This document shows, in pieces, positions 11,501 to 35,641 of a stretch of 43,581 nt of DNA. Origin of the DNA: Candidatus Vecturithrix granuli (lineage in GTDB: Bacteria > Moduliflexota > Moduliflexia > Moduliflexales > Moduliflexaceae); assembly GCA_000739535.1 (NCBI GenBank), contig DF820465.1, positions 203,342-246,922 on the forward strand. The letters run 5' to 3'. The notes beneath the pieces are model-generated. The model saw only the letters and a program-made list of their open reading frames with translations. It made no database searches and was not told the DNA's origin. The position numbers and the translations under genes are program-made. Each line of letters begins with the position of its first letter. The first letter of the stretch is position 1.

Positions 11501-12194
11501 GGATGATCCCAAGAAAAAGGTCAAACGCACCATTCTGAAGACCCCGAACTACCCCTTAGCCTATCGCCGGGTTGAGGGGAAATATGGCCTGGCCTATAAT
11601 GCGGAAAATCTCATGGAACTCGAAAAATTCAAAAGCGGGCGTATGAGTGCGGAAATCAATGAGCTCTTTAATCAACAATTTCCGCATTTCGAGGTCAATG
11701 GCGATCATTTTGACCAGTTCCTCAAGCGCATAGACGGACGGTGGACGATTTCGCTGCCGGAGTATCTCGCCTGGATTCATCAAAACCCGCATGTCATGCC
11801 CAACACGGAAGAAGAGAATTTCGTGCGAAGTCTCCTGGCCAGGGAAACCTTAGCCGTCGCCACCGCAAATAATGTCGGGCATGTCAAAGAAACCGACGTG
11901 TATTTCTTGCAGGAAGGGGTAAATTTCTTTACCCAGGACACGACGCTGGTGTTAGTGGGCGGCACGATTTACCATAAGTGCAAAGAGAACAAAGAGTATT
12001 TGTGGGAAAATATCAAAACCATTGCCCGGGGCGCGTTATTCGATCCAGAAGAGTATACTGTCTTACGCCCGAATCACCAAATTTTGCTCGATGCGTCTTA
12101 TATTCTTTCCACCGTCGGAGGGCTGTATGGGCGGCTAGATCCGGAACGCGCCCTCCGGATTTTAAAGAAAAACCTGAAACCGTTGGAGATTTGA
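8541..12194 (+). CDS. Fused B12-binding-like, mutase-barrel-like and GlmL/MutL reactivase protein
   Basis: A 1217-residue protein in three parts. Residues 1-135: a flavodoxin-like cobalamin-binding-type domain with C18-V-H20-T-L-G23, equal to the DxHxxG cobalamin motif except for Cys in place of Asp. About 195-690: a barrel-like region, with YSGTDEL, PIFFYNRLDGRGPLS, INKPLEVNDPHQW and RRCSDDMYVTDHVLAG, reminiscent of the glutamate mutase epsilon subunit. About 695-1217: an ASKHA ATPase of the GlmL/MutL type, with phosphate loop D701-F-G-S-T-Y-T-K708, ILLSGGVNDGGD and D965-I-G-G-C-T-T-D972. GlmL is thought to reactivate B12 mutases, and elsewhere these are separate genes. ATG 8541 follows AAAGGAGGGATAAAGCT. 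The reactivase call is strong, the B12 domain good, and the barrel substrate unknown. Confidence 0.82.
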   Translation: MSTSAIKKRVLNCSLEPCVHTLGVERFAEWMESKGIGYVCIKLGPAVSIDELIDKVRESHPEVVAFSYRLGDLHVDEIVLELVEKVYQYGLEPQKSGIRYCFGGVRLAANLVRAMTGVPILADKFSPVEDRHFDLEQIAATYKDHKQLQGFFELIVDDYVTMEELEEFAMKATQAAEKQITWSDDMVERIRQVREIEHRPIIRAHIGTAAETIDPTVEGTELISDAGALEIVSLAPDQACQAFLAKFVRGEEDPSKYRKGEGGAPIRSKEDLRRLKKATQRGNFPMIRIYSGTDELVELAKIFEETLHMPFPAVPIFFYNRLDGRGPLSILDGLNEHFATMRWWASINKPLEVNDPHQWQLRRCSDDMYVTDHVLAGVVALKMGIKHYVMQLMFDLPPEISPFYDLAKMKAAYELIYPLTQHFDFSIIKETRGGLSSFPPNLDKAKSHLAITTYWQMYMEPDIVHIVSYCEAHHDAKAEDIIASCDIAKQSFEEYDRAAMTDLWKNPEVLARKEELKKGAMYNILHLALMGGYEGKVTLENFAEYAVSPEIAARRENLADRGKNYETMLLDVIDGRNYLSQDCNMISADNLDLALQTGLFQAPQVTVIDKRYELTGACKTEIVNGTCRIAEFCGQKVHNEFERVDLIRQKFPWYFYKDVTQADEQSHLIEVEDKIEESVVQAFRAELGMTAFENKKVLAVDFGSTYTKVAIFNTSSDEVDLRYVPTTVDDIREGLANGLGCLEECRRQGNWDPLRDAMDQFDTKLPCSSAKGGLKMVTIASTARESGFAADLAALTAGAKLLNSYNGKISAEEAKQIYLEDCPEIILLSGGVNDGGDSTAVFHNARLLAETAHLATYAKYGIPIIYSGNEDVTDEVLDIFHRRQIDARATKNIMPEVNKFNIEVVNEAIRELFQTVVIRGKGFDVVEEYMSAKFIPTPRAAFLGINLLARGYGSEEGLGNIVALDIGGCTTDFFANVRANPLYLYPWDDPKKKVKRTILKTPNYPLAYRRVEGKYGLAYNAENLMELEKFKSGRMSAEINELFNQQFPHFEVNGDHFDQFLKRIDGRWTISLPEYLAWIHQNPHVMPNTEEENFVRSLLARETLAVATANNVGHVKETDVYFLQEGVNFFTQDTTLVLVGGTIYHKCKENKEYLWENIKTIARGALFDPEEYTVLRPNHQILLDASYILSTVGGLYGRLDPERALRILKKNLKPLEI

Positions 12195-12213
12195 CCTTTT
12201 TTGGGATGACAAA

Positions 12214-12244
12214 GAAACCAGGTTTTTTGAAAAAACCTGGTTTC
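12214..12244. terminator. GAAACCAGG-type perfect hairpin
   Basis: A 15-base perfect stem, GAAACCAGGTTTTTT (12214-12228) with its complement at 12230-12244 and a one-base centre. It lies 20 bases after the B12 fusion gene and fits a bidirectional terminator. It belongs to a repeat family with at least six members in the window. Confidence 0.7.
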
Positions 12245-12317
12245 TCGCCCGTGAAGTTATTTTTTAAACTTCTTTTATCAGGGTTTTTCGCCGGAGGTGA
12301 TCCAGTATTGTAGTAAC

Positions 12318-12348
12318 TTTGTCGGACAAGTCAGACTTGTCCGACAAA
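12318..12348. repeat. TTTGTCGGACAAGTC palindrome
   Basis: TTTGTCGGACAAGTC (12318-12332) and its exact complement (12334-12348) form a 15-base stem with one base between; a third partial copy, TCCGACAAAGG, follows. It is related to the palindrome at 15500-15543 through the GTCGGACAAG/TTGTCC words. It lies in the leader of the TAXI gene. Confidence 0.7.
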
Positions 12349-12458
12349 ATCCGACAAAGGAGGTGAGGTTTCCGTCAAGGCAGCCGAAATAGACCGCTGA
12401 TGAAGAGATAATGAATCTATAAACAACTCTTGCATTTACAACATGGGAGGGATTCGGT

Positions 12459-13478
12459 ATGAAAAAACTATGGAAAATGAGCTTTGCGATGATGATGGCA
12501 TTGTGTGTTATGTTCGGGGCAGCCGGCAGAGAAGCTGCGTCCGAAACCGTGTATTTAAATATGGGGAGCACCTCGTCCACATCAGGGGTGTATGCCTGGT
12601 GTGTGGCAACGGCTTCAGTTATCAACAAGGCCAATGCTGACATCAATGTCACAGTGGTTGAGAGTGGGGCCGCGTTGGATAATCTCCGGCGCACAAAAGA
12701 AGGCGCGTTTGATTTTTCCCTGTGCGTGGATTCTGCATCAGCGATGCAGATGTATCGAGGAACGGATACTTTTAAAGACGAAGGCTGGGACAAGGTCAGA
12801 TGGTTATTTCTGCGGAATGCGATTGTGAATAGACTGTATGTGAAAGCTGATTCGGGCTTGAAGACCTTTGGCGATTTGTCTGGCAAAAAATTCAGCCCCG
12901 GCATTCCGGGCGCATCTTCGACCGCCTCATTTATGAAATTCAATGATCTATTAGGGACAGGGATCGACGTGATGCCCGCCTCACTCGCGGATGCCATTAG
13001 CGCGTTTCAACAAGGGAAAATTGTTGGCTTGCAAAAATCAAGCCCCTTAAAATCGTTGGATGCCTCGCTAATCGAAGTGAACCTTACGACGCCGCTGTCG
13101 GTTGTCGGTTATAGTCAGGAGGATATCAAAAAAATCCGCGAGCAGCTTCCTTATATCATTTTCTTTGAAACCCCGGCCGGAGGGATCGAACAGCTTCCTG
13201 AGCTTGGCGCGGTGATGGAAGAGGCGCAAGTTGTGGGCGCGATCGCCTCTTCGGAGCTGCCCGAAGAAGTTGGGTATAAAATTGTCAAAGCCTATGTTGA
13301 AGACCTTGAAACCGTTGCCGCAGCTTATGCTCCGGTCAAAGGATGGGATCCGATCGGAGATTCCTTCAAATTAATCTCAGAGGGCGGCGAAATTCCTATT
13401 CACGCCGGACTGTATAAATACTGCGTGGAAAAAGGTATCGAGGTGCCGGAACGCTTCATTCCGCCGGAAGCGAAGTAA
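12459..13478 (+). CDS. TAXI family TRAP transporter solute-binding protein
   Basis: A 339-residue secreted protein. Residues 1-27 form a Sec signal (MKKLWK, hydrophobic core, small residues before ETVYL). The mature protein begins VYLNMGSTSSTSGVYAW, the hallmark glycine/serine start of the TAXI group (TRAP-associated extracytoplasmic immunogenic protein). It also carries ALDNLRRTKEGAFDFSLC, LKTFGDLSGKKFSPGIPGAS and DAISAFQQGKIVG, the typical ligand-pocket order. TAXI proteins bind small carboxylates or amino acids in the periplasm and deliver them to the TRAP permease. A GGGAGGG ribosome site precedes ATG 12459. The permease is the next gene, 89 bases on, with a hairpin between. The ligand is unknown. 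Confidence 0.92.
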   Translation: MKKLWKMSFAMMMALCVMFGAAGREAASETVYLNMGSTSSTSGVYAWCVATASVINKANADINVTVVESGAALDNLRRTKEGAFDFSLCVDSASAMQMYRGTDTFKDEGWDKVRWLFLRNAIVNRLYVKADSGLKTFGDLSGKKFSPGIPGASSTASFMKFNDLLGTGIDVMPASLADAISAFQQGKIVGLQKSSPLKSLDASLIEVNLTTPLSVVGYSQEDIKKIREQLPYIIFFETPAGGIEQLPELGAVMEEAQVVGAIASSELPEEVGYKIVKAYVEDLETVAAAYAPVKGWDPIGDSFKLISEGGEIPIHAGLYKYCVEKGIEVPERFIPPEAK

Positions 13479-13496
13479 GCGGTCATTGACGATCGT

Positions 13497-13529
13497 AAAA
13501 ACCGGGTTTCTTGAAGAAACCCGGTTTTT
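13497..13529. terminator. AAAACCGGG-type perfect hairpin between TRAP genes
   Basis: AAAAACCGGGTTTCTT (13497-13512) with its exact complement (13514-13529): a 16-base stem with a one-base centre and a T-run, 18 bases after the binding-protein stop. As an intrinsic terminator it would lower permease expression relative to the binding protein, a common pattern in transporter operons. Confidence 0.7.
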
Positions 13530-13567
13530 CAGAGAGAAAACTGCCGTAATATCAAGAGGAGAGCAGC

Positions 13568-15475
13568 ATGGCTATTCAAATAGAGAAGAAAGCATTCATA
13601 AAAAGATCGAATGTATTATTCTGGGGAGGTTTGGGATTTGCTGTTTGTCAGTTAGTCCTGCCCGTGTTCTTTTCGCTGATTGATATACAAATGCGAGCCA
13701 TTCATATTATTTTAGGCATCTCCCTCGCCTCCTTAGCCTGTCCTTACAAAAAGAAAGGCCAGGAAGAACCGACCACGATTTCTGTATGGGACCTGGTGAT
13801 CATTCTGATCCTGATTGTCGCCAATGTGAACACCTTTTTAAAAGCCATGCAAATCTATATGACCCCTGGCAGTGGGTCAACAGTTGATTTAATCATTGGC
13901 GTGGCGTTAATTATCGTTATCCTTGATGCGGCTCGAAGAACAGTCGGGTGGGCTATTCCGATCTTTGTAGGGTTGATGTTCGCGTATATCTGGGCTGGCC
14001 CCCTGATGCCCGGGATGTGGAAACTGCGGGGGCTGCCCTGGAAATATGTGTTGAATTCTGTCTATTTTTCGCCTCTAGGAATTTATGGCAGTATTACCGG
14101 CATGTCAGCGACCTTTATCGGCATGTTTATTATTTTTGGCGCGCTGATTGCCGCGGCCGGGGGAGGAAAGACCTTTATAGATTTTGCCATTGCCTTAACG
14201 GGTCGGTATATTGGTGGTCCCGCGAAAGCGGCCGTGGTGTCCAGTGCACTCTTTGGGAGTATTTCAGGGAGCGGGGTGGCAAATGTTATGGTCACGGGAA
14301 CCTATACAATTCCTCTGATGAAACGCTTAGGTTATGATCCCAATTTCGCCGGGGGGGTCGAAGCGATTGCTTCGACCGGAGGCGGCATCACTCCACCGAT
14401 TATGAGCGTGACGGCCTTTATGATGGCTGAGTTTCTGCAAATCTCGTATTTTAAAATTATCGGCTATGCCCTGATCCCATGCTGCCTATATTATGTTGGA
14501 ATCTTTACTGGAGTTCACCTTGAAACCATTCGAAGCGGACTCGCTGCGGTGCCCGATGAAGAAATTCCCTCCTGGAAAGAGATTCTGACCTTCAAACGTC
14601 TGGCCTCGCTTGTGATCCCAACCGGAATTTTGTTATATTTCATTGCTACAGGTACATCGCTGTTGTACGCCGGATTTTACGCTTGTGTCGCCGTGATTGT
14701 CGTGTTCTTCGCGTCTCATTTCTCGATATCCGGCATGAAAATGGTAATCATAGAGATCGGCAAAGGCTTGAGCGAGGGCGGGTTAGGCTTAGCCCATATT
14801 GTGCCGATTCTGGTGGCGGTCAACATCCTGGTGAACATGATTGGTGTCACGGGGATCGCCCCGAAACTTGGGGGATTGATTATGGACATCGGCGGAGAAA
14901 ATTTGATCCTGGCCCTGTTTATCGCCACGATTATTCCGTTTCTGTTTGGCACCTCTCTGCCGGTTGTCCCGACCTATGTTCTGTCGCTTTCGATTATTGC
15001 ACCCTCATTAGTACACTTAGGCATTGATGAAGTCGCCATTCATCTGTTTTTCATTTACTGGTCTATTTTGGGCGGGGTGACGCCGCCAACCTGTACTTCC
15101 GCCATCGCCGCCGCTGCCATTGCTAAAAGCGACTGGTTCAAAACCGCGATCATCTCAGTCAAGTTGGGTATTGTGGCCTTTGTGATCCCCTATTTTTTCG
15201 TGCTGAATCCCGCGCTTGTGGGTCGAAGCAGTTTCATGAACATTGCCGAATATGGTCTCAGTGCTTTAGTAGGTACGTTGCTGCTGGCTTATGGATTCTT
15301 TGCGGATATAAAAAGCAAGTTGAATTTGATCCTCAGAACATTGTTTGTTGTGAGCGGGCTGCTGCTGATGTGTCCGAGTCATACATTATCAGTAATCGGC
15401 ATTCTGACGGCGGTTCTCACCTTTCTCGTGCAACGGTTTAGCGAAAAAACAGCAGTGGCGAAGACATCCGGCTAA
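13568..15475 (+). CDS. Fused TRAP transporter permease (4TM/12TM, TAXI type)
   Basis: A 635-residue polytopic inner-membrane protein. The N-terminal part (about residues 1-130) has four membrane segments and corresponds to the small DctQ-like subunit. The remainder is the large DctM-like channel, with the repeats AAAGGGKTFIDFAIALTGRYIGGPAK, shown here in part as GGGKTFIDFAIAL, SGSGVANVMVTGTYTIPLMK in part as GSGVANVMVTG, and ASTGGGITPPIMSVTAF. In the second half are IDIGGENL-like MDIGGENLILALF and GGVTPPTCTSAIAAAAIA. Such fused permeases are typical partners of TAXI binding proteins and use an ion gradient for uptake. AAGAGGAGAGCAGC precedes ATG 13568. Directly upstream is the cognate binding protein. 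Confidence 0.92.
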   Translation: MAIQIEKKAFIKRSNVLFWGGLGFAVCQLVLPVFFSLIDIQMRAIHIILGISLASLACPYKKKGQEEPTTISVWDLVIILILIVANVNTFLKAMQIYMTPGSGSTVDLIIGVALIIVILDAARRTVGWAIPIFVGLMFAYIWAGPLMPGMWKLRGLPWKYVLNSVYFSPLGIYGSITGMSATFIGMFIIFGALIAAAGGGKTFIDFAIALTGRYIGGPAKAAVVSSALFGSISGSGVANVMVTGTYTIPLMKRLGYDPNFAGGVEAIASTGGGITPPIMSVTAFMMAEFLQISYFKIIGYALIPCCLYYVGIFTGVHLETIRSGLAAVPDEEIPSWKEILTFKRLASLVIPTGILLYFIATGTSLLYAGFYACVAVIVVFFASHFSISGMKMVIIEIGKGLSEGGLGLAHIVPILVAVNILVNMIGVTGIAPKLGGLIMDIGGENLILALFIATIIPFLFGTSLPVVPTYVLSLSIIAPSLVHLGIDEVAIHLFFIYWSILGGVTPPTCTSAIAAAAIAKSDWFKTAIISVKLGIVAFVIPYFFVLNPALVGRSSFMNIAEYGLSALVGTLLLAYGFFADIKSKLNLILRTLFVVSGLLLMCPSHTLSVIGILTAVLTFLVQRFSEKTAVAKTSG

Positions 15476-22379: not shown

Positions 22380-22739
22380 ATGGACGAGCGCCCCTTTTTT
22401 GTCGTTGAAGCGTACACAAAAAGTGCTGTCGATCCGATCATGTTCAACAAAGGTGACACCCTGGTTATAGGGGAACTGTACCAGGACGATCCTGAATGGC
22501 CTGGCTGGATATGGTGTTGTCACCCTATCACAGGAAAAGCTGGGTGGGTCCCTCAGCAATACCTTCGAATTCAGGATAGGCAAGGAATTGCCCTCTGCGA
22601 CTATTCGGCCAATGAATTAACCGTTCTGCCTGGCGATACGCTTCTTGTCTCCACTCAGGAAAATGGGTGGGCCTGGGCGCAAAACACCTCTGATGAGTAT
22701 GGCTGGGTGCCGCTCAGACATATTCAACCCATAATATGA
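22380..22739 (+). CDS. Tandem SH3-domain protein
   Basis: A 119-residue protein made of two eukaryotic-type SH3 folds. SH3-1 (residues 7-63) has FFVVEAYTKS, FNKGDTLVIGELYQDD, WPGWIWCCHP and GKAGWVPQQYLRI. SH3-2 (65-118) has GIALCDYSANELTVLPGDTLLV, W-AWAQNTS and YGWVPLRHIQP. Both retain the ALYDY-like, W, G-W-V-P and Y/H positions that form a proline-peptide groove. No signal peptide, so it should be cytoplasmic. The stop overlaps the next gene by four bases (ATGA at 22736-22739), so it is translationally coupled to the membrane protein that follows and probably binds it or the same complex. Partner peptide unknown. Confidence 0.82.
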   Translation: MDERPFFVVEAYTKSAVDPIMFNKGDTLVIGELYQDDPEWPGWIWCCHPITGKAGWVPQQYLRIQDRQGIALCDYSANELTVLPGDTLLVSTQENGWAWAQNTSDEYGWVPLRHIQPII

Positions 22740-23692
22740 GGGACAATATGCACGGATGGAAAATTCATGGACGAAAATCCGTAGGGATAGGAATTGCAGG
22801 AATTATTCTGGCAGCCATCCTGATTTTCATCGTATTTAAAGAGACGCCTCGTACACCGGAATCGAACGAGCCTCATGTTCAAACCGCGCTTGAAGCCGCT
22901 CGCAAAGAAGGTTACGACGTCGGCTATGCCAATGGCTACAATGCCGCCAGAGAAGAGAGTTCCACAGTCTATCAGAAAGGCTACGAGGCTGCTCGCCAGG
23001 AAATCGGCCGGCAGGCCTTCACTCGTTCCGGGGTGTTTGGCTTTCTGGTTGGCTTGCTGATCAGCACCGGCATGGTGGTGGCGATTAAACGCAAAGAATT
23101 CTCTGCCTCATGGCAGACCTTCAAAAAGCAGTATGCCCTGCGTAAGACGTTTCAAAAAATTCCTCCCAATCTTTCCCCGGAAATCGAGGCGGTTGCCCAA
23201 CAAATTGCGCGGAGTTACATTACGATTCTTGCGCAATTACGCAAAGGGCAGGGATATGTGGTTTCGCCCTATGCCAAACAATGGCGTACGAAATTGCAAA
23301 TGTTAATGCACAAAGCGCTGCGCTTAATGGAATTGATTCAGGAGCTCGAAGCTGCGCGCGACAGCATTGATCAAAAACAACTGACCAGAACCATTCGTAA
23401 TTTGCAACACATCGTCCAGAATGCTGATCAGGATGATGACACTCGTAACGCGGCGGTGAAAGCGTTACAACGTGCGAAACAAACCCATCGGGATTTGCTC
23501 AAAACCTACAAGAATCTGGAAAATTGTAAAGCCTCGTTACAAGGCATTACCGGCGTGTTGGACTCCATGCACCTCAAAATTTCCAATCTGAATGTCAACA
23601 CGCAAAAAACAGAGTTGTTGGAAGAACTGTCTTCTGATCTGGAACAAGAAATGTTCGCCCTGGAAGAGGCCTTGCAGGAATTTGCAGTATAG
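22736..23692 (+). CDS. Two-helix membrane protein with coiled coil, coupled to SH3 protein
   Basis: A 318-residue protein without a recognised family. A first membrane helix is at about residues 17-35. A repeat-like periplasmic segment follows with Gly-Tyr motifs (EGYDVGYANGYNAAREE, YQKGYEAARQE), then a second helix at about 100-118. The remaining 200 residues are cytoplasmic, highly charged and helical, probably coiled coil. The start may be ATG 22736, overlapping the SH3 stop, or ATG 22748, which has GAGGG five bases before it. The EGY-x-x-GY motif is like that of flagellar or lysozyme-inhibitor-type surface segments, but I make no functional claim. Coupling to the SH3 gene suggests a shared complex. 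Confidence 0.72.
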   Translation: MRDNMHGWKIHGRKSVGIGIAGIILAAILIFIVFKETPRTPESNEPHVQTALEAARKEGYDVGYANGYNAAREESSTVYQKGYEAARQEIGRQAFTRSGVFGFLVGLLISTGMVVAIKRKEFSASWQTFKKQYALRKTFQKIPPNLSPEIEAVAQQIARSYITILAQLRKGQGYVVSPYAKQWRTKLQMLMHKALRLMELIQELEAARDSIDQKQLTRTIRNLQHIVQNADQDDDTRNAAVKALQRAKQTHRDLLKTYKNLENCKASLQGITGVLDSMHLKISNLNVNTQKTELLEELSSDLEQEMFALEEALQEFAV

Positions 23693-23753
23693 AGCTAAAA
23701 AACCAGGATTTTGAGAAATTTGGTATTTGCTAGTGTTTTGTCAAGGTTTGACC

Positions 23754-23816
23754 GACGGGTTCGTAGTAGCCGCTTAAGCGGCGTTTAAACGCTAAAGCGT
23801 TTACTACGAACCCGTC
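23754..23816. terminator. Cloverleaf palindrome of the GTAGTA family between convergent genes
   Basis: The outer stem GACGGGTTCGTAGTA (23754-23768) pairs exactly with 23802-23816. Inside are GCCGCTTAAGCGGC and AAACGCTAAAGCGTTT hairpins. It sits between the convergent membrane-protein gene and the SBP-receiver gene and could stop both transcripts. A degenerate GAAACC-type hairpin precedes it near 23697-23730. Confidence 0.75.
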
Positions 23817-23836
23817 ACTCAAATGTTGGCAAAGTA

Positions 23837-25231
23837 CTAGTTTGTAATGGATTTTTCCAGGATATTCCGAATCACGGACGCGGCTTTTTCCGGGACAAAG
23901 GGTTTTTTGATAAAGATTTTCACGCCGAGTTTAAACACTTCTTCCCGGACTTCTTGCACATCAATCCCGCTAATCACGATAATATTGACGTGGGGATCCA
24001 TCTGGCGGATTTGTTGAATGGCATCTACTCCGCTCAACCCTGGCATGGATAAATCCATCGTCATAAAATTGGGGCGCAATCTGGCAAACATATCAATCGC
24101 TTCCTGACCGGTGGTCGCTTCTCCGAGCGATTCAGCCTGCAAAATTTCCAGAGTTCGATTCAAAAAATTCCGCACGACCACGGAATCATCAGCCATTAAA
24201 AACCGTAAGCGCGAGAGATCGCCTTCGAAACTCACATTATCTTTATAATAAATCCCTTCTTTTTCAAAAAAGCCGACATCTTTTTTTGTGCCTTTTTCTA
24301 ACAGCACCAGCGCCGGATCTACCTCTCGCAAGAGATCTGTTCGATATAATTGATTTTCTGAAAACTTCAATGCCACGCGCCCATTTTCATAAAGAAAATC
24401 TCGAAAACTCAAGACCCCGATGCGAAAGAGAGAATCCATGATCATGGAATAAGTATTTTTCCTCATGATCGACTGCATGTCCTCAGGACTGCGCTGGAAA
24501 AACTCTGACAGAAGAGCTGCAGCTTCTTCAAAATAGAGCTCGAGCATAAGGGTAGCCTTTTGCAGTACTTTGAGAATCATGATTAATTTTTCAGGTTCAC
24601 GATCAATCGTTTCATCAGGCGCGATCAAGCAGCTTTGATTGATAAGCCAATTCACATTCCCTTCAATGTGCGGGATTTCGGAACGAGTTCCTGAAAAGAA
24701 AAATTCTCCGCCATAGTGTTGAGCTTCAGTGGTCCAGGGTTCCCAACAGGCGATGGCATCGAGTTTTTTCTCGCGGAAGGCGGCTAATTGATCTGAGGGG
24801 AGCAAATTGATAAAATAGACCTGATCTAAATCGACATGACAGTCTTTGGCCATGTTGGTGAGCGCAATAAAGACCGCCGCGCCTTTAGCTATACCGATCC
24901 GCTTTCCTTCTAAATCCTGCGGCGTATGAATGCCGCTGGCGCGATGAATCACCACCTGTTGCGTTCCGGCAATATCAGCCAGAGGCGCCAGGATTTTCGT
25001 ACTCACTCCCTTATCGTGCAAAAGAATGGAAGTAATAGGCGTTTGGGTAAAGGCGAAGGGTTTCTGTTCTGCGTGAAGGACATCTTGCGGCATAGTCGTC
25101 CCGGATTCAGCAAAGCGACACACGACATCGAGTCCGGCCTCTTTTGCGAAGAGATCGAGTTTGATAGCCAACGCAAGTTGGGCTGAAATATTTGGATCGT
25201 TGACGCCCCATATTTCAAGTTTTTTAGACAT
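23837..25231 (-). CDS. NMT1/SsuA-like substrate-binding domain fused to a response-regulator receiver
   Basis: A 464-residue protein with an ABC-transporter type substrate-binding domain (about residues 1-300) and a CheY-like receiver (about 340-460). The binding part has the nitrate/sulfonate/thiamine-precursor (SsuA/NMT1) pattern: SGTTMPQDVLHAEQKPFAF, HTPQDLEGKRIGIAKGAA, and LDAIACWEPWTTEA. It has no signal peptide or lipobox, so it should be cytoplasmic. The receiver has D348-D349, phospho-acceptor D393 in MDLSMPG, S421 in VISG and K443 in KKPF, a complete site. No kinase gene adjoins it. A known SBP is a periplasmic protein, so the domain pairing is odd. Probably a one-protein ligand sensor feeding a phosphorelay; output unknown. 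Confidence 0.85.
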   Translation of the reverse strand: MSKKLEIWGVNDPNISAQLALAIKLDLFAKEAGLDVVCRFAESGTTMPQDVLHAEQKPFAFTQTPITSILLHDKGVSTKILAPLADIAGTQQVVIHRASGIHTPQDLEGKRIGIAKGAAVFIALTNMAKDCHVDLDQVYFINLLPSDQLAAFREKKLDAIACWEPWTTEAQHYGGEFFFSGTRSEIPHIEGNVNWLINQSCLIAPDETIDREPEKLIMILKVLQKATLMLELYFEEAAALLSEFFQRSPEDMQSIMRKNTYSMIMDSLFRIGVLSFRDFLYENGRVALKFSENQLYRTDLLREVDPALVLLEKGTKKDVGFFEKEGIYYKDNVSFEGDLSRLRFLMADDSVVVRNFLNRTLEILQAESLGEATTGQEAIDMFARLRPNFMTMDLSMPGLSGVDAIQQIRQMDPHVNIIVISGIDVQEVREEVFKLGVKIFIKKPFVPEKAASVIRNILEKSITN

Positions 25232-25329
25232 AATATTGCAGATAATCCTTGAGAGGCCATTCCTGACAGGATATGCTCTCAGTAAGCTATATCAGAGATT
25301 ATCCCCTTCTATGATCCACCAAAAAATAA

Positions 25330-25383: not shown

Positions 25384-26490
25384 TCAATCATACGCGGTCG
25401 ATCGGAATTGATCCTGCAAGTGCGCCTGAATTTCCTGGAGATGTCGTTGATTCGTTCGCTGTTGCGAAAGCGGCGGAAGGTTATCAAAAGCAAAAAAGCC
25501 GACATCCAGGGTTTCATGACTGGTTCGCGCTTCACCTCCCGTAATCTCGCACAAAAAAATCAACTTATAGGCATGATAGAAGGAAAGCGGCGTCCCTGCC
25601 CGGTTACAATCAAATACCGCCAGCAGTTTGTGCACGACAACCTGAAACCCGCTTTCTTCCCAGACTTCACGCACCGCCACTTCTGACGGAAAATCCCCAA
25701 CATCCGCCCATCCGCCTGGCATACTCCAACGTTGATCCGAACGTTCCTGAATTAATAAGATTTTCCCATCGCGGATAACCGCGCCGCGTACATCCACTTT
25801 AGGCGTGGCATAGCCCGGCTGCAGCGCAAAATTTTCAAGAATCTGTTCCGTCTTCAACCGCGTATGCTGCTCAACAATTTCTGCGGCGATTTCTCCTAAA
25901 CGTTGATAGCGTTCTCGATCATATTCAGACAGACAATAGGTCAATCCGGTTTGACTCAGTGCTTGAATTTCTCTGGCCCAGACAAGCCAGGGAGGAATAT
26001 TTTTTAATATACGAGCCTGCTCAGAAAGCTCTAATTCCATATAGACAGCTCCTTCCAGAGGATTATGATAATACGGGGGAATTTCTCGAAATCCAAAAGA
26101 GGCATATAACTGCCGAGCCGCTATCATCGAGGCTAATGTATCTAAACGTAAACACGAATATCCCGCTATTCGAGCTTTTTCAATCACGCATTCTAACAAC
26201 TGTCTGGCAAGTCCCTGACGGCGACAGGCGGGCACCACATACATCCGTTTGACCTCGCCAATGCCCTGGTCAATTTTACGTAGAGCGATACATCCGGCAG
26301 GTTTTCCCTCAGAATAGGCCAATAGCAGCAAACCATCCGGCCGAGTATATACACCGGGTAAGGTTGCTAATTCTTGCTCAAATCCTTGAAAACTCAGGTC
26401 AACACTCAACCAGTTTGCATATTCACGAAACAGATTTCGAATGTGATCAATATCTTGTGCGCTATGGACTTCTTGAATAGTATATGTCAT
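25384..26490 (-). CDS. GNAT acetyltransferase fused to a NUDIX hydrolase
   Basis: A 368-residue bifunctional protein. Residues 1-155 form a GNAT domain with the acetyl-CoA loop R90-R91-Q92-G93-L94-A95 and the C-terminal strand ASFGFREIPPYYHNPLEGAVYMEL. Residues about 160-220 resemble the NUDIX N-terminal helical extension (PPWLVWAREIQALSQTGLTY). Residues 230-360 form the NUDIX fold with the box G260 to F282: the catalytic R274-E275-x-x-E278-E279 is intact and the first Glu of the consensus is Asp266. The NUDIX part resembles ADP-ribose pyrophosphatase-like enzymes with this N-terminal piece. ATG 26490 has a GGAGGAGGGG ribosome site. The two activities may act on one class of substrate, but this is open. 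Confidence 0.9.
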   Translation of the reverse strand: MTYTIQEVHSAQDIDHIRNLFREYANWLSVDLSFQGFEQELATLPGVYTRPDGLLLLAYSEGKPAGCIALRKIDQGIGEVKRMYVVPACRRQGLARQLLECVIEKARIAGYSCLRLDTLASMIAARQLYASFGFREIPPYYHNPLEGAVYMELELSEQARILKNIPPWLVWAREIQALSQTGLTYCLSEYDRERYQRLGEIAAEIVEQHTRLKTEQILENFALQPGYATPKVDVRGAVIRDGKILLIQERSDQRWSMPGGWADVGDFPSEVAVREVWEESGFQVVVHKLLAVFDCNRAGTPLSFYHAYKLIFLCEITGGEARTSHETLDVGFFAFDNLPPLSQQRTNQRHLQEIQAHLQDQFRSTAYD

Positions 26491-26699
26491 TTTTTTAACC
26501 CCTCCTCCCATAGACATTCTTCACGATCCCCTCGAATTGTAAAGAAATAATCTCTTATAAAGAAAAAAAACCTCCTCAAAACAAAAAAGTATTTACAAAA
26601 CTCCAGGGATAAAATAATGTTCTATTTTAAGGAAAAGGACATGCTGAGGAAATCTTTCTGATCCTCCATGCTAACCATATCAGCCCTAAAGGAACGAAT

Positions 26700-33334: not shown

Positions 33335-33505
33335 AATTATCAAACAATACACATATTTTATACGAATGTGTCACGCGTGTTCACCGATTTTCCGAAAGAA
33401 CATGGCGTTTTTTCGCGTGTCTTCGTGTCACTTTGTGGCTGATTAGTTACGACATGATTTTCTGCTTCATAGTTCTGCTCTCACATTTTGTTTTTCACGC
33501 ATATT

Positions 33506-35641
33506 ATGACAGAGAGTTTGCTTCGTTTGCTCCCAACACTTGAGCATTTCAGCGTACTCGGCTATTGGGTTGTCTTGCTCATTTCACTGGCAGAATCGCT
33601 GGCGTTTGTTGGCGTTCTGGTGCCTGGCACAACCATCGTTATCTTGACTGGGTTTTTGGCCAGCAAAGGCGTGTTTGATCTGGGCGATCTCATCTGGTTT
33701 GTCGTGGTTGGCGCTATTCTGGGGGATGGCTTGAGTTTTTATCTCGGACAGCGCGGCACACAACTTGTCCGTCCTGATAGTAAGTTGTTTACTGCCAGCC
33801 GGATGCAAAAAGCGACTCAGTTCTTTCAACGTCATGGGGGGAAGAGTGTGTTTCTCGGCCGTTTTGTCGGTCCAATGCGCGCAATCATTCCCTTCATTGC
33901 CGGTATGTCCAGAATGAATACGCGGGCCTTTCTGCTCTGGAATGTGAGCAGTGCTCTGGTCTGGGCGATGTCATACCTGCTGTTGGGTTATTTTTTCGGT
34001 CACGCCTGGCAGGCGATTGAAACCTGGTCAACCCGCTTTAGCCTCTTGCTGATCGTCTTCTTCCTGGTTGTCGCCGGGCTCTATTGGGCTAAACATCGGA
34101 TCGTGAAGTATGGGAAACTGATGTTCGCGGTGCTACGCTCAATTGGCCGGTCTTTTCTCAGTACTGTCCGTAAAAACCCTGATGTACAACATCTGCTTCA
34201 CCGTCATCCACGCTTTTTCGGTTTTCTGCGTGATCGCATTCGAACCGATCAATTTTCCGGTTTGACTCTCTCATTATTGACGCTGGCGTTTGTCTATACC
34301 TTCGCCTTATTTCTTGGAATCATTGAAGACTTTCTAATGGCGGATATGATTGTGACGGTTGATATTCGTCTCCAAAATCTTTTCTATGCGTTTCGAACTC
34401 CTGAACTGGTGCAATTTTTTCTCTGGATTACGCTTCTGGGAAAGGCAAGTATCATTATCAGTGCTGCTCTGGTAGCGTCCGGAATCTTATGGCTGAACAG
34501 GCAACGGGTGTATCTTCTCCCTTTCTGGCTCGTGATTATCGGCAGCGCGGCTTTTGATGCGCTCGGAAAATCGCTGTTTCAGCGCCCCCGGCCTGAATTC
34601 AGCGTGTACATCGAACATTCCTTTTCGTTTCCGAGCGGTCATGCCACAATCGCTGTCGCCTTTTACGGATTTCTCGCCTATATTCTGTGGCAGCATACCA
34701 AAACCTGGACCCAAAAAGTCAATCTCTTCTTTCTTACAATAGGAGTGATCATCGCAATTGGTTTCAGTCGCCTTTATCTGGGGGTCCACTTTTTAAGTGA
34801 TGTCTGGGCCGGGTATCTTTTAGGGTTACTCTGGCTGATTATCGGTATCAGCCTGACTGAATGGATTGGCAGGCAGCAGCGACATTCCCTTCTCAGACCG
34901 TTTTTCCTCTCAAACAGCATGAAAGTGGTCTCTGGCTGTTTGCTTGCGGCAGAAATTGGAGGTTATGTTTTCCTGGGTATGTCCTATGCTCCTCCGCTGA
35001 CAATATCTTTTCCTCTTGCCGATAAGCCGCTTCCCAATGATGTGATCGCGATCTTTACAGAGCAGCAACTTCCTAAATATACCGAAACGCTGACCGGAAG
35101 ACAGCAGGAACCGCTCAGTTTGCTTCTTCTGGCTTACAGCGACGCCGATGTGATTGCGGCTTTTCGTCAGGCCGGATGGTATCGGGCAGATCCGATTACG
35201 TGGGCAACGTTGTTAAAAATTGCTAACGCAGCCGTATTAAATACCGAATATCTGACCGCGCCAATTTCGCCGTATTTCTGGAATGCACGACCGCATGATT
35301 TTGGGCTTGAAAAACCAACACACGCTCAAAGTGTGCGCAAGCGTCATCACGTTCGATTCTGGCGCACCCATTATCTCTCTCATACTGGCAAACGACTTTA
35401 CGTCGGCACGGCAAGTTTGGATATTGGCATCAAATGGGGTATTACGCATAAAATTGCCCCTGACATCGATACCGAACGCGATATCGTGCTGACAGATTTG
35501 CAAACAGCAGGGTTTGTCGACGCCTACCAGCAGATTCAATTCGTTGAGCCAACCCTGGGATATAATGAATTCAACGATCCGTTTTTTACCAAAGGGATCA
35601 GTTATGTTATAAACCTTTTGAAAGGAGGAGCATTGTCATGA
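33506..35641 (+). CDS. Fused DedA, PAP2 phosphatase and LssY C-terminal protein
   Basis: A 711-residue polytopic membrane protein with three parts. Residues 1-200: DedA (SNARE-associated Golgi) with FVGVLVPGTTIVILTGFLAS, FLGRFVGPMRAIIPFIAG and GDGLSFYLGQRG. Residues about 240-455: PAP2 lipid phosphatase with K355-x6-R362-P363, P376-S-G-H379 and S421-R-x5-H428-x3-D432, so all three motifs are intact. Residues about 500-700: LssY C-terminal domain, with FRQAGWYRADPITW and FWRTHYLSHTGKRLYVGTAS. DedA/PAP2 bifunctional proteins are known and are linked to undecaprenyl-phosphate recycling. The start is ATG 33506 without a clear ribosome site. It overlaps the radical SAM gene by four bases (ATGA). 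Confidence 0.92.
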   Translation: MTESLLRLLPTLEHFSVLGYWVVLLISLAESLAFVGVLVPGTTIVILTGFLASKGVFDLGDLIWFVVVGAILGDGLSFYLGQRGTQLVRPDSKLFTASRMQKATQFFQRHGGKSVFLGRFVGPMRAIIPFIAGMSRMNTRAFLLWNVSSALVWAMSYLLLGYFFGHAWQAIETWSTRFSLLLIVFFLVVAGLYWAKHRIVKYGKLMFAVLRSIGRSFLSTVRKNPDVQHLLHRHPRFFGFLRDRIRTDQFSGLTLSLLTLAFVYTFALFLGIIEDFLMADMIVTVDIRLQNLFYAFRTPELVQFFLWITLLGKASIIISAALVASGILWLNRQRVYLLPFWLVIIGSAAFDALGKSLFQRPRPEFSVYIEHSFSFPSGHATIAVAFYGFLAYILWQHTKTWTQKVNLFFLTIGVIIAIGFSRLYLGVHFLSDVWAGYLLGLLWLIIGISLTEWIGRQQRHSLLRPFFLSNSMKVVSGCLLAAEIGGYVFLGMSYAPPLTISFPLADKPLPNDVIAIFTEQQLPKYTETLTGRQQEPLSLLLLAYSDADVIAAFRQAGWYRADPITWATLLKIANAAVLNTEYLTAPISPYFWNARPHDFGLEKPTHAQSVRKRHHVRFWRTHYLSHTGKRLYVGTASLDIGIKWGITHKIAPDIDTERDIVLTDLQTAGFVDAYQQIQFVEPTLGYNEFNDPFFTKGISYVINLLKGGALS

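Follow-up and report, generated by a model that had tools for sequence, protein, structure and literature searches.

A cytosolic substrate-binding domain fused to a CheY-like receiver: a candidate ligand-binding response regulator

Introduction

Chemotaxis-type signalling normally obtains its input through chemoreceptors and CheW. The window analysed here, a stretch of 43,581 nucleotides of bacterial DNA, encodes a protein that joins a binding domain of the kind used by transporters, which usually works outside the cell, to an intracellular CheY-like receiver, which raises the question of what a response regulator does with a ligand-binding domain of its own. An initial annotation, made from the sequence of the window, saw in this protein (SBP-REC, for its substrate-binding and receiver parts) a self-contained device that couples the binding of a small nutrient to phosphorylation. 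The parts of that description stand: the protein is a cytosolic binder fused to a phosphorylatable receiver, and residues of the putative cleft type are conserved. Coupling within the single protein is not established, because a receiver needs a phosphodonor. As described below, comparison of sequences makes SBP-REC one member of an apparent multi-gene system, whose relative is a CheA with the same kind of binding domain, paired with a CheY, elsewhere in the genome.

Results

The gene encodes a complete binding domain and a complete receiver

Both halves of the protein scored above their Pfam cut-offs in the domain search that had been proposed for this locus: NMT1 (PF09084) at residues 21-227 (1.5e-14; 54.8 bits against a cut-off of 20.5) and Response_reg at residues 345-451 (2e-21). 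Alignment with relatives indicated that the binding domain is complete, running from residue 5 to about residue 312. The receiver contains D348, D349, D393, S421 and K443-P444, as had been claimed for its phosphorylation site. With a receiver fold and the DD, D, S/T and K residues in place, SBP-REC is a CheY-like response regulator. The five residues D348, D349, D393, S421 and K443 are invariant in all seven SBP-REC proteins of this genome and in all four related CheYs (position 421 being compared as S throughout). The Pfam scan detected neither ANTAR nor any other nucleic-acid-binding output, and the receiver forms the end of the chain, in agreement with the earlier statement that the protein has no DNA-binding output. 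The same scan found no kinase core in the chain, which is therefore neither a hybrid nor a CheA histidine kinase.

Table 1. Positions of the SBP-REC gene, its parts and its SBP-CheA relatives (window coordinates unless a locus is named).
Feature	Position	Strand	Remarks
SBP-REC gene	23837-25231	minus	single uninterrupted ORF, 464 aa, ATG start
Type II substrate-binding domain, NMT1/SsuA family, cytosolic	24296-25219	minus	residues 5-312; Pfam NMT1 and structural matches
Linker with two short strands	24209-24295	minus	residues 313-341; AlphaFold2 model
CheY-like receiver, phosphorylation site complete	23840-24208	minus	residues 342-464; Pfam, structural match, tree
Predicted phospho-acceptor Asp393	24053-24055	minus	residue inspection and alignment
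In-frame TGA 5' of the start	25292-25294	minus	bars a longer N-terminus
Palindromic MITE-like repeat, 111 bp	23730-23840	none	abuts the SBP-REC 3' end; not part of the system
SBP-CheA and orthologues	L062:5067-8093; L064:6120-9155; L065:501-3533; L066:6205-9222		degenerate ATP lid, Hpt histidine intact

Between the upstream in-frame TGA and the ATG of SBP-REC there is no ATG, GTG or TTG; the reading frame therefore cannot be extended to an earlier start, and the protein lacks a signal peptide. This bears out its description as lacking a signal peptide and excludes the upstream start that had been considered as a way of adding one. Given that no start supplies a signal peptide and that no transporter genes occur among its neighbours in the window, SBP-REC does not qualify as the periplasmic binding protein of an ABC transporter. 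Nor do che genes neighbour it in the window. The remark that no kinase is adjacent is accurate for this locus.

The repeat that abuts the 3' end of the gene has 51-nt arms and CTAG ends, and its terminal CTAG provides the TAG stop of SBP-REC; seven near-full copies of this 111-bp palindrome and dozens of core fragments are present in the genome. Other genes of the window encode a GNAT acetyltransferase joined to a Nudix_N-NUDIX hydrolase (25384-26517), a 717-aa protein combining VTT, PAP2 and LssY_C domains (33488-35641), and a short protein with two SH3-type domains and no signal peptide, directly before a 318-aa protein without a Pfam match (22380-23692).

The predicted fold resembles transporter binding proteins and cytosolic regulatory domains

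The AlphaFold2 model of SBP-REC, built from a 28-row alignment, had a mean pLDDT of 95.9, which dipped to 78 only around residues 311-320, and a pTM of 0.91, which suggests a defined orientation between the two domains. The modelled binding domain matched SsuA (2x26, Z 29.2 over 280 residues), TauA (6ssy, Z 27.8) and cytosolic regulatory domains, namely those of CmpC (9u9z, Z 27.0; 9uai, 26.4; 9uak, 26.1) and NrtC (8wm7, Z 25.6). Three enzymes of the same fold, Thi5, DszB and MqnD, matched at Z 21.5-25.0. The modelled receiver matched CheY of T. maritima (4iga, Z 18.7 over 116 residues).

The NMT1/SsuA assignment was thus right in fold and family, which does not by itself fix the class of ligand: the TIGR01728 profile for aliphatic sulfonate-binding SsuA gave 69.1 bits, far below its cut-off of 163.5, so sulfonates are not favoured. 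The thiamine precursors, sulfonates and nitrate put forward as ligands were guesses from the family name, and none is specifically supported. The CCCFC motif of THI5 is absent from 11 of 11 family members, which argues against a THI5-type HMP-P synthase.

The nearest transporter SBPs, from one genome of another phylum (G088) and others of that phylum, are about 34% identical to the SBP of the window, and their genes accompany those of an ABC ATPase and a permease. They have in common with the cytosolic SBPs D12, S16, Q18, T45, T62, T64, D86 and T90-Q91-Q92, and further W163, W166, S184, E190, W195, N259 and Y261, most of which we take, from their place in the fold, to be putative cleft residues. 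A cyclic-amide hydrolase of the dihydropyrimidinase/hydantoinase/allantoinase type lies within about 1.5 kb in 13 of 18 close transporter-SBP cases, which is a weak hint that SBP-REC might bind a compound of the cyclic-amide or ureide class. The loci L110-L126 and L091 hold a transporter SBP family of another phylum (ABC ATPase, permease and SBP), often beside a cyclic-amide hydrolase.

SBP-REC is a multicopy family in one genome

The genome (8.38 Mb in 21 contigs, 93.8% complete, 10.75% contamination) encodes seven full-length SBP-REC proteins. The six paralogues are 36-61% identical to the window protein and are spread over five contigs; each has the same continuous architecture, their start positions nearly coincide, and none has a hydrophobic signal peptide by inspection. 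The contamination of the bin counts against the reading preferred below, although the window gene, one paralogue and the CheA relative reside on a single 931-kb contig (C19). The surroundings of the family members vary, and no neighbour is conserved. The single exception is the paralogue at L061:6163-7548, where cheR begins 4 bp after the gene; next in order come a HEAT-repeat gene, another cheR, and genes for a receiver and for a CheB methylesterase. At L061:11554-14417, a stretch of N 1.6 kb long (12021-13643) separates the receiver part of a CheB-like gene from its methylesterase part; this stretch is a gap in the assembly, masked sequence or an insertion.

The phylogenetic spread, for which a survey had also been suggested, was narrow in the genomes covered. 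In G001, G002 and G003, three genomes of this order that carry the CheA relative, no full-length SBP-REC turned up, so the two are not strictly co-inherited. Among 381 genomes outside the order, no such fusion was found at E 1e-20, a threshold that misses more distant NMT1-REC fusions. The one strong match outside the order (G088) is a transporter protein with a signal peptide and ABC genes, and 95 genomes of its phylum searched at E 1e-40 yielded just more transporter-like SBPs. None of the plasmid records covers 80% of the protein, and a scan of the genome contigs returned an unrelated receiver as its sole match. SBP-REC is a real, conserved gene family, and we regard it as a new combination of known parts with a putative signalling function; in the open-access papers covered by our searches, we found no description of an NMT1-type SBP fused to CheA, CheY or a receiver.

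A CheA-like protein with the same kind of binding domain occurs in four genomes of the order

After the paralogues, the next best match to the window SBP was the N-terminal part of a protein of 1008 aa encoded on contig C19. Its Pfam domains follow the order NMT1, Hpt, P2, H-kinase_dim, HATPase_c and CheW, and a stand-alone CheY gene follows immediately. This SBP-CheA and CheY pair is present in each of the four genomes of the order that the analysis covered (this genome, G000, and G001, G002 and G003), and its SBP part is about 50% identical to that of the window protein. Set against the remaining CheAs of these genomes, none of the four SBP-CheAs has kept the F box (PGFST) or the G2 box (GRGVGMD), and the N-box Asn is missing from three, so the protein may be no kinase. 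What they do keep is the Hpt histidine (HTLKG) and, in the ATP site, the G1 motif (DDGxG). Between G002 and G003, dN is far below dS in every domain (for P4, dN 0.02 and dS 0.42); every domain, including the degenerate ATPase, is under purifying selection. SBP-CheA is likely to be a conserved protein that has little if any kinase activity but still accepts phosphate and hands it on, so its role may be that of a hub for phosphotransfer and not of a kinase. An AlphaFold model of the full-length protein, built from ten sequences, was of low quality (pLDDT 55.5), and we drew nothing from it.

The SBP-CheA and CheY genes of G000 adjoin a phosphoglucomutase gene and, by our reading of the sequence, other glycogen genes; these surroundings may bear on the physiology of the pair. 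CheA-type matches number 8, 5, 3 and 5 in G000, G001, G002 and G003, conventional CheAs included, and MCPsignal matches number 75 in this genome and 10, 8 and 12 in the relatives. With 75 MCPsignal and eight CheA-type matches in the genome, we rejected a lack of chemoreceptors as the reason for SBP-CheA. The presence of conventional CheAs and chemoreceptors also means that another CheA could supply phosphate.

Both halves group with the SBP-CheA/CheY pair

We built a tree of 43 receivers: the seven of SBP-REC, the four CheYs adjacent to SBP-CheA, and 32 others from this and other genomes. The SBP-REC receivers grouped together (99/95), and their sister group was the four CheYs (100/97), with the 32 others outside. 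Two substitutions mark the same set: S at D+2 (S395) is common to the SBP-REC receivers and cognate CheYs and occurs in 1 of the 32 others, and G at T+1 (G422) is likewise common to them and occurs in 2 of the 32. In receivers, these two positions are known to tune the kinetics and chemistry of phosphorylation.

A second tree comprised 11 cytosolic SBPs and 14 transporter binding proteins. One branch (99/98) set the 11 cytosolic domains apart from the transporter proteins. Those of the seven SBP-RECs did not form one clade, and the AU test did not reject their monophyly (p 0.15); earlier SBP trees with far outgroups were unresolved. Judged by these phylogenies, both the SBP and the REC half share ancestors with the SBP-CheA/CheY pair. 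The simplest history would be a fusion of the SBP with the cognate CheY, since in that operon only the kinase core lies between them; this direction of change is presumed.

A proposed ligand-binding CheY and its alternatives

We give about an even chance to the reading in which SBP-REC is a ligand-binding CheY that works with SBP-CheA in a chemotaxis-type module and acts by protein contact. We infer its steps, the direction of control among them, as follows. The cytosolic SsuA/NMT1-type domain would close on a small metabolite, and closure would alter phosphorylation of the receiver, its dephosphorylation (the lifetime of the phosphate) or the docking of a partner; precedents for these steps are NasS-NasT (PMC3795266), CmpC/NrtC (PMC11349869) and CheWS (PMC10653840). 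Phosphate would most likely come from an Hpt domain, either that of SBP-CheA or that of another CheA of the cell (eight CheA-type matches in all); if SBP-CheA is no kinase, another CheA or a small-molecule phosphodonor might be the source instead. The readout would be contact between proteins, and the partner is probably part of a metabolic machinery or of a motility system other than flagella. A search of G000-G003 that detected its positive controls found no FliM, which makes the flagellar motor improbable as a target, and we rejected a flagellar CheY. The candidate phylum KSB3 has been described as gliding toward sugars without flagella and as having very many signalling genes (PMC4312070).

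We consider it unlikely that SBP-REC is instead a switch of the NasS-NasT or AmiC-AmiR kind, in which the receiver is a protein-binding surface gated by the SBP and phosphorylation matters little or not at all. In the first of these, NasS, an NrtA-like binder of the cytosol, controls its REC-ANTAR partner by dissociating from it in a ligand-dependent way (PMC3795266), and the confident single orientation of the domains in the model would suit direct contact between SBP and receiver. However, invariance of the five phosphorylation residues across seven paralogues and four CheYs would be unexpected if phosphorylation were dispensable, and SBP-REC lacks a nucleic-acid-binding output such as ANTAR. 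Slightly less probable still is a phosphate sink, in which SBP-RECs without an output of their own would drain phosphoryl groups from the CheA Hpt according to the level of a metabolite and so tune other pathways. The lack of an output domain, the seven copies mostly without conserved neighbours, and the Hpt histidine that SBP-CheA retains despite its degenerate ATP site are all consistent with a sink, whereas the divergence of the seven paralogues suggests separate roles.

That the SBP domain is an enzyme-like (for example THI5-like) or purely structural relic with no sensing role seems improbable to us: it shares its fold with Thi5, DszB and MqnD, but it has no CCCFC motif, and its nearest sequence relatives are binding proteins of ABC transporters, with which it has the cleft-type residues in common. 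Finally, the joining of two genes by a sequencing frameshift or chimeric assembly, which the initial annotation had named as a concern, is ruled out by the recurrence of the same continuous architecture in seven full-length genes on five contigs, and the confident model of the whole chain also speaks against it.

Discussion

The preferred reading of SBP-REC as a ligand-binding CheY can be extended to a receptor-free chemosensory branch, a picture that we find possible and hold tentatively, with the balance against it. One transporter-type SBP would stand at both ends of a chemotaxis phosphorelay, with SBP-CheA as a lid-less, ligand-sensing hub and SBP-REC, probably a fusion of the SBP and the cognate CheY, as the readout. 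The sensor here appears to be built into a CheA-like protein and a response regulator, inside the cell. If confirmed, SBP-REC would be a natural ligand-gated response regulator, suited to studying the effect of ligand occupancy on the phosphorylation of a receiver, and soluble sensors of metabolites could be modelled on it. Our observations also suggest a signalling role in the cytosol for the products of some genes now annotated as sulfonate or NMT1 binding proteins.

By analogy, SBP-REC would work like several known systems, and it belongs to none of them. NasS-NasT also has a cytosolic NrtA-family binder acting on a receiver-containing protein (PMC3795266), but as two separate proteins, of which NasT has an ANTAR RNA-binding output; SBP-REC is fused, lacks ANTAR and is related to a CheA/CheY pair. 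AmiC-AmiR similarly has a cytosolic small-molecule binder that gates a response-regulator-like partner (PMC3795266), although the proteins are separate and AmiR is an ANTAR antiterminator. NrtC and CmpC use an NrtA/CmpA-like binding domain as a regulator in the cytosol (PMC11349869), and the fold of that domain is close to ours (Z 25.6-27.0), but it is fused to a transporter ATPase rather than to a receiver or CheA. Regulators of the REC-PAS/GAF type, known from an archaeal census (PMC5847659), combine a receiver with a ligand-binding domain and have no output domain; there, the receiver comes first and PAS or GAF is not a two-lobed SBP. In CheWS of Treponema denticola, a chemotaxis protein likewise carries a fused sensor for a metabolite of the cytosol and so bypasses chemoreceptors (PMC10653840); its sensor is a CheR-like SAM-binding domain on CheW, whereas here an SBP is found on CheY and on CheA.
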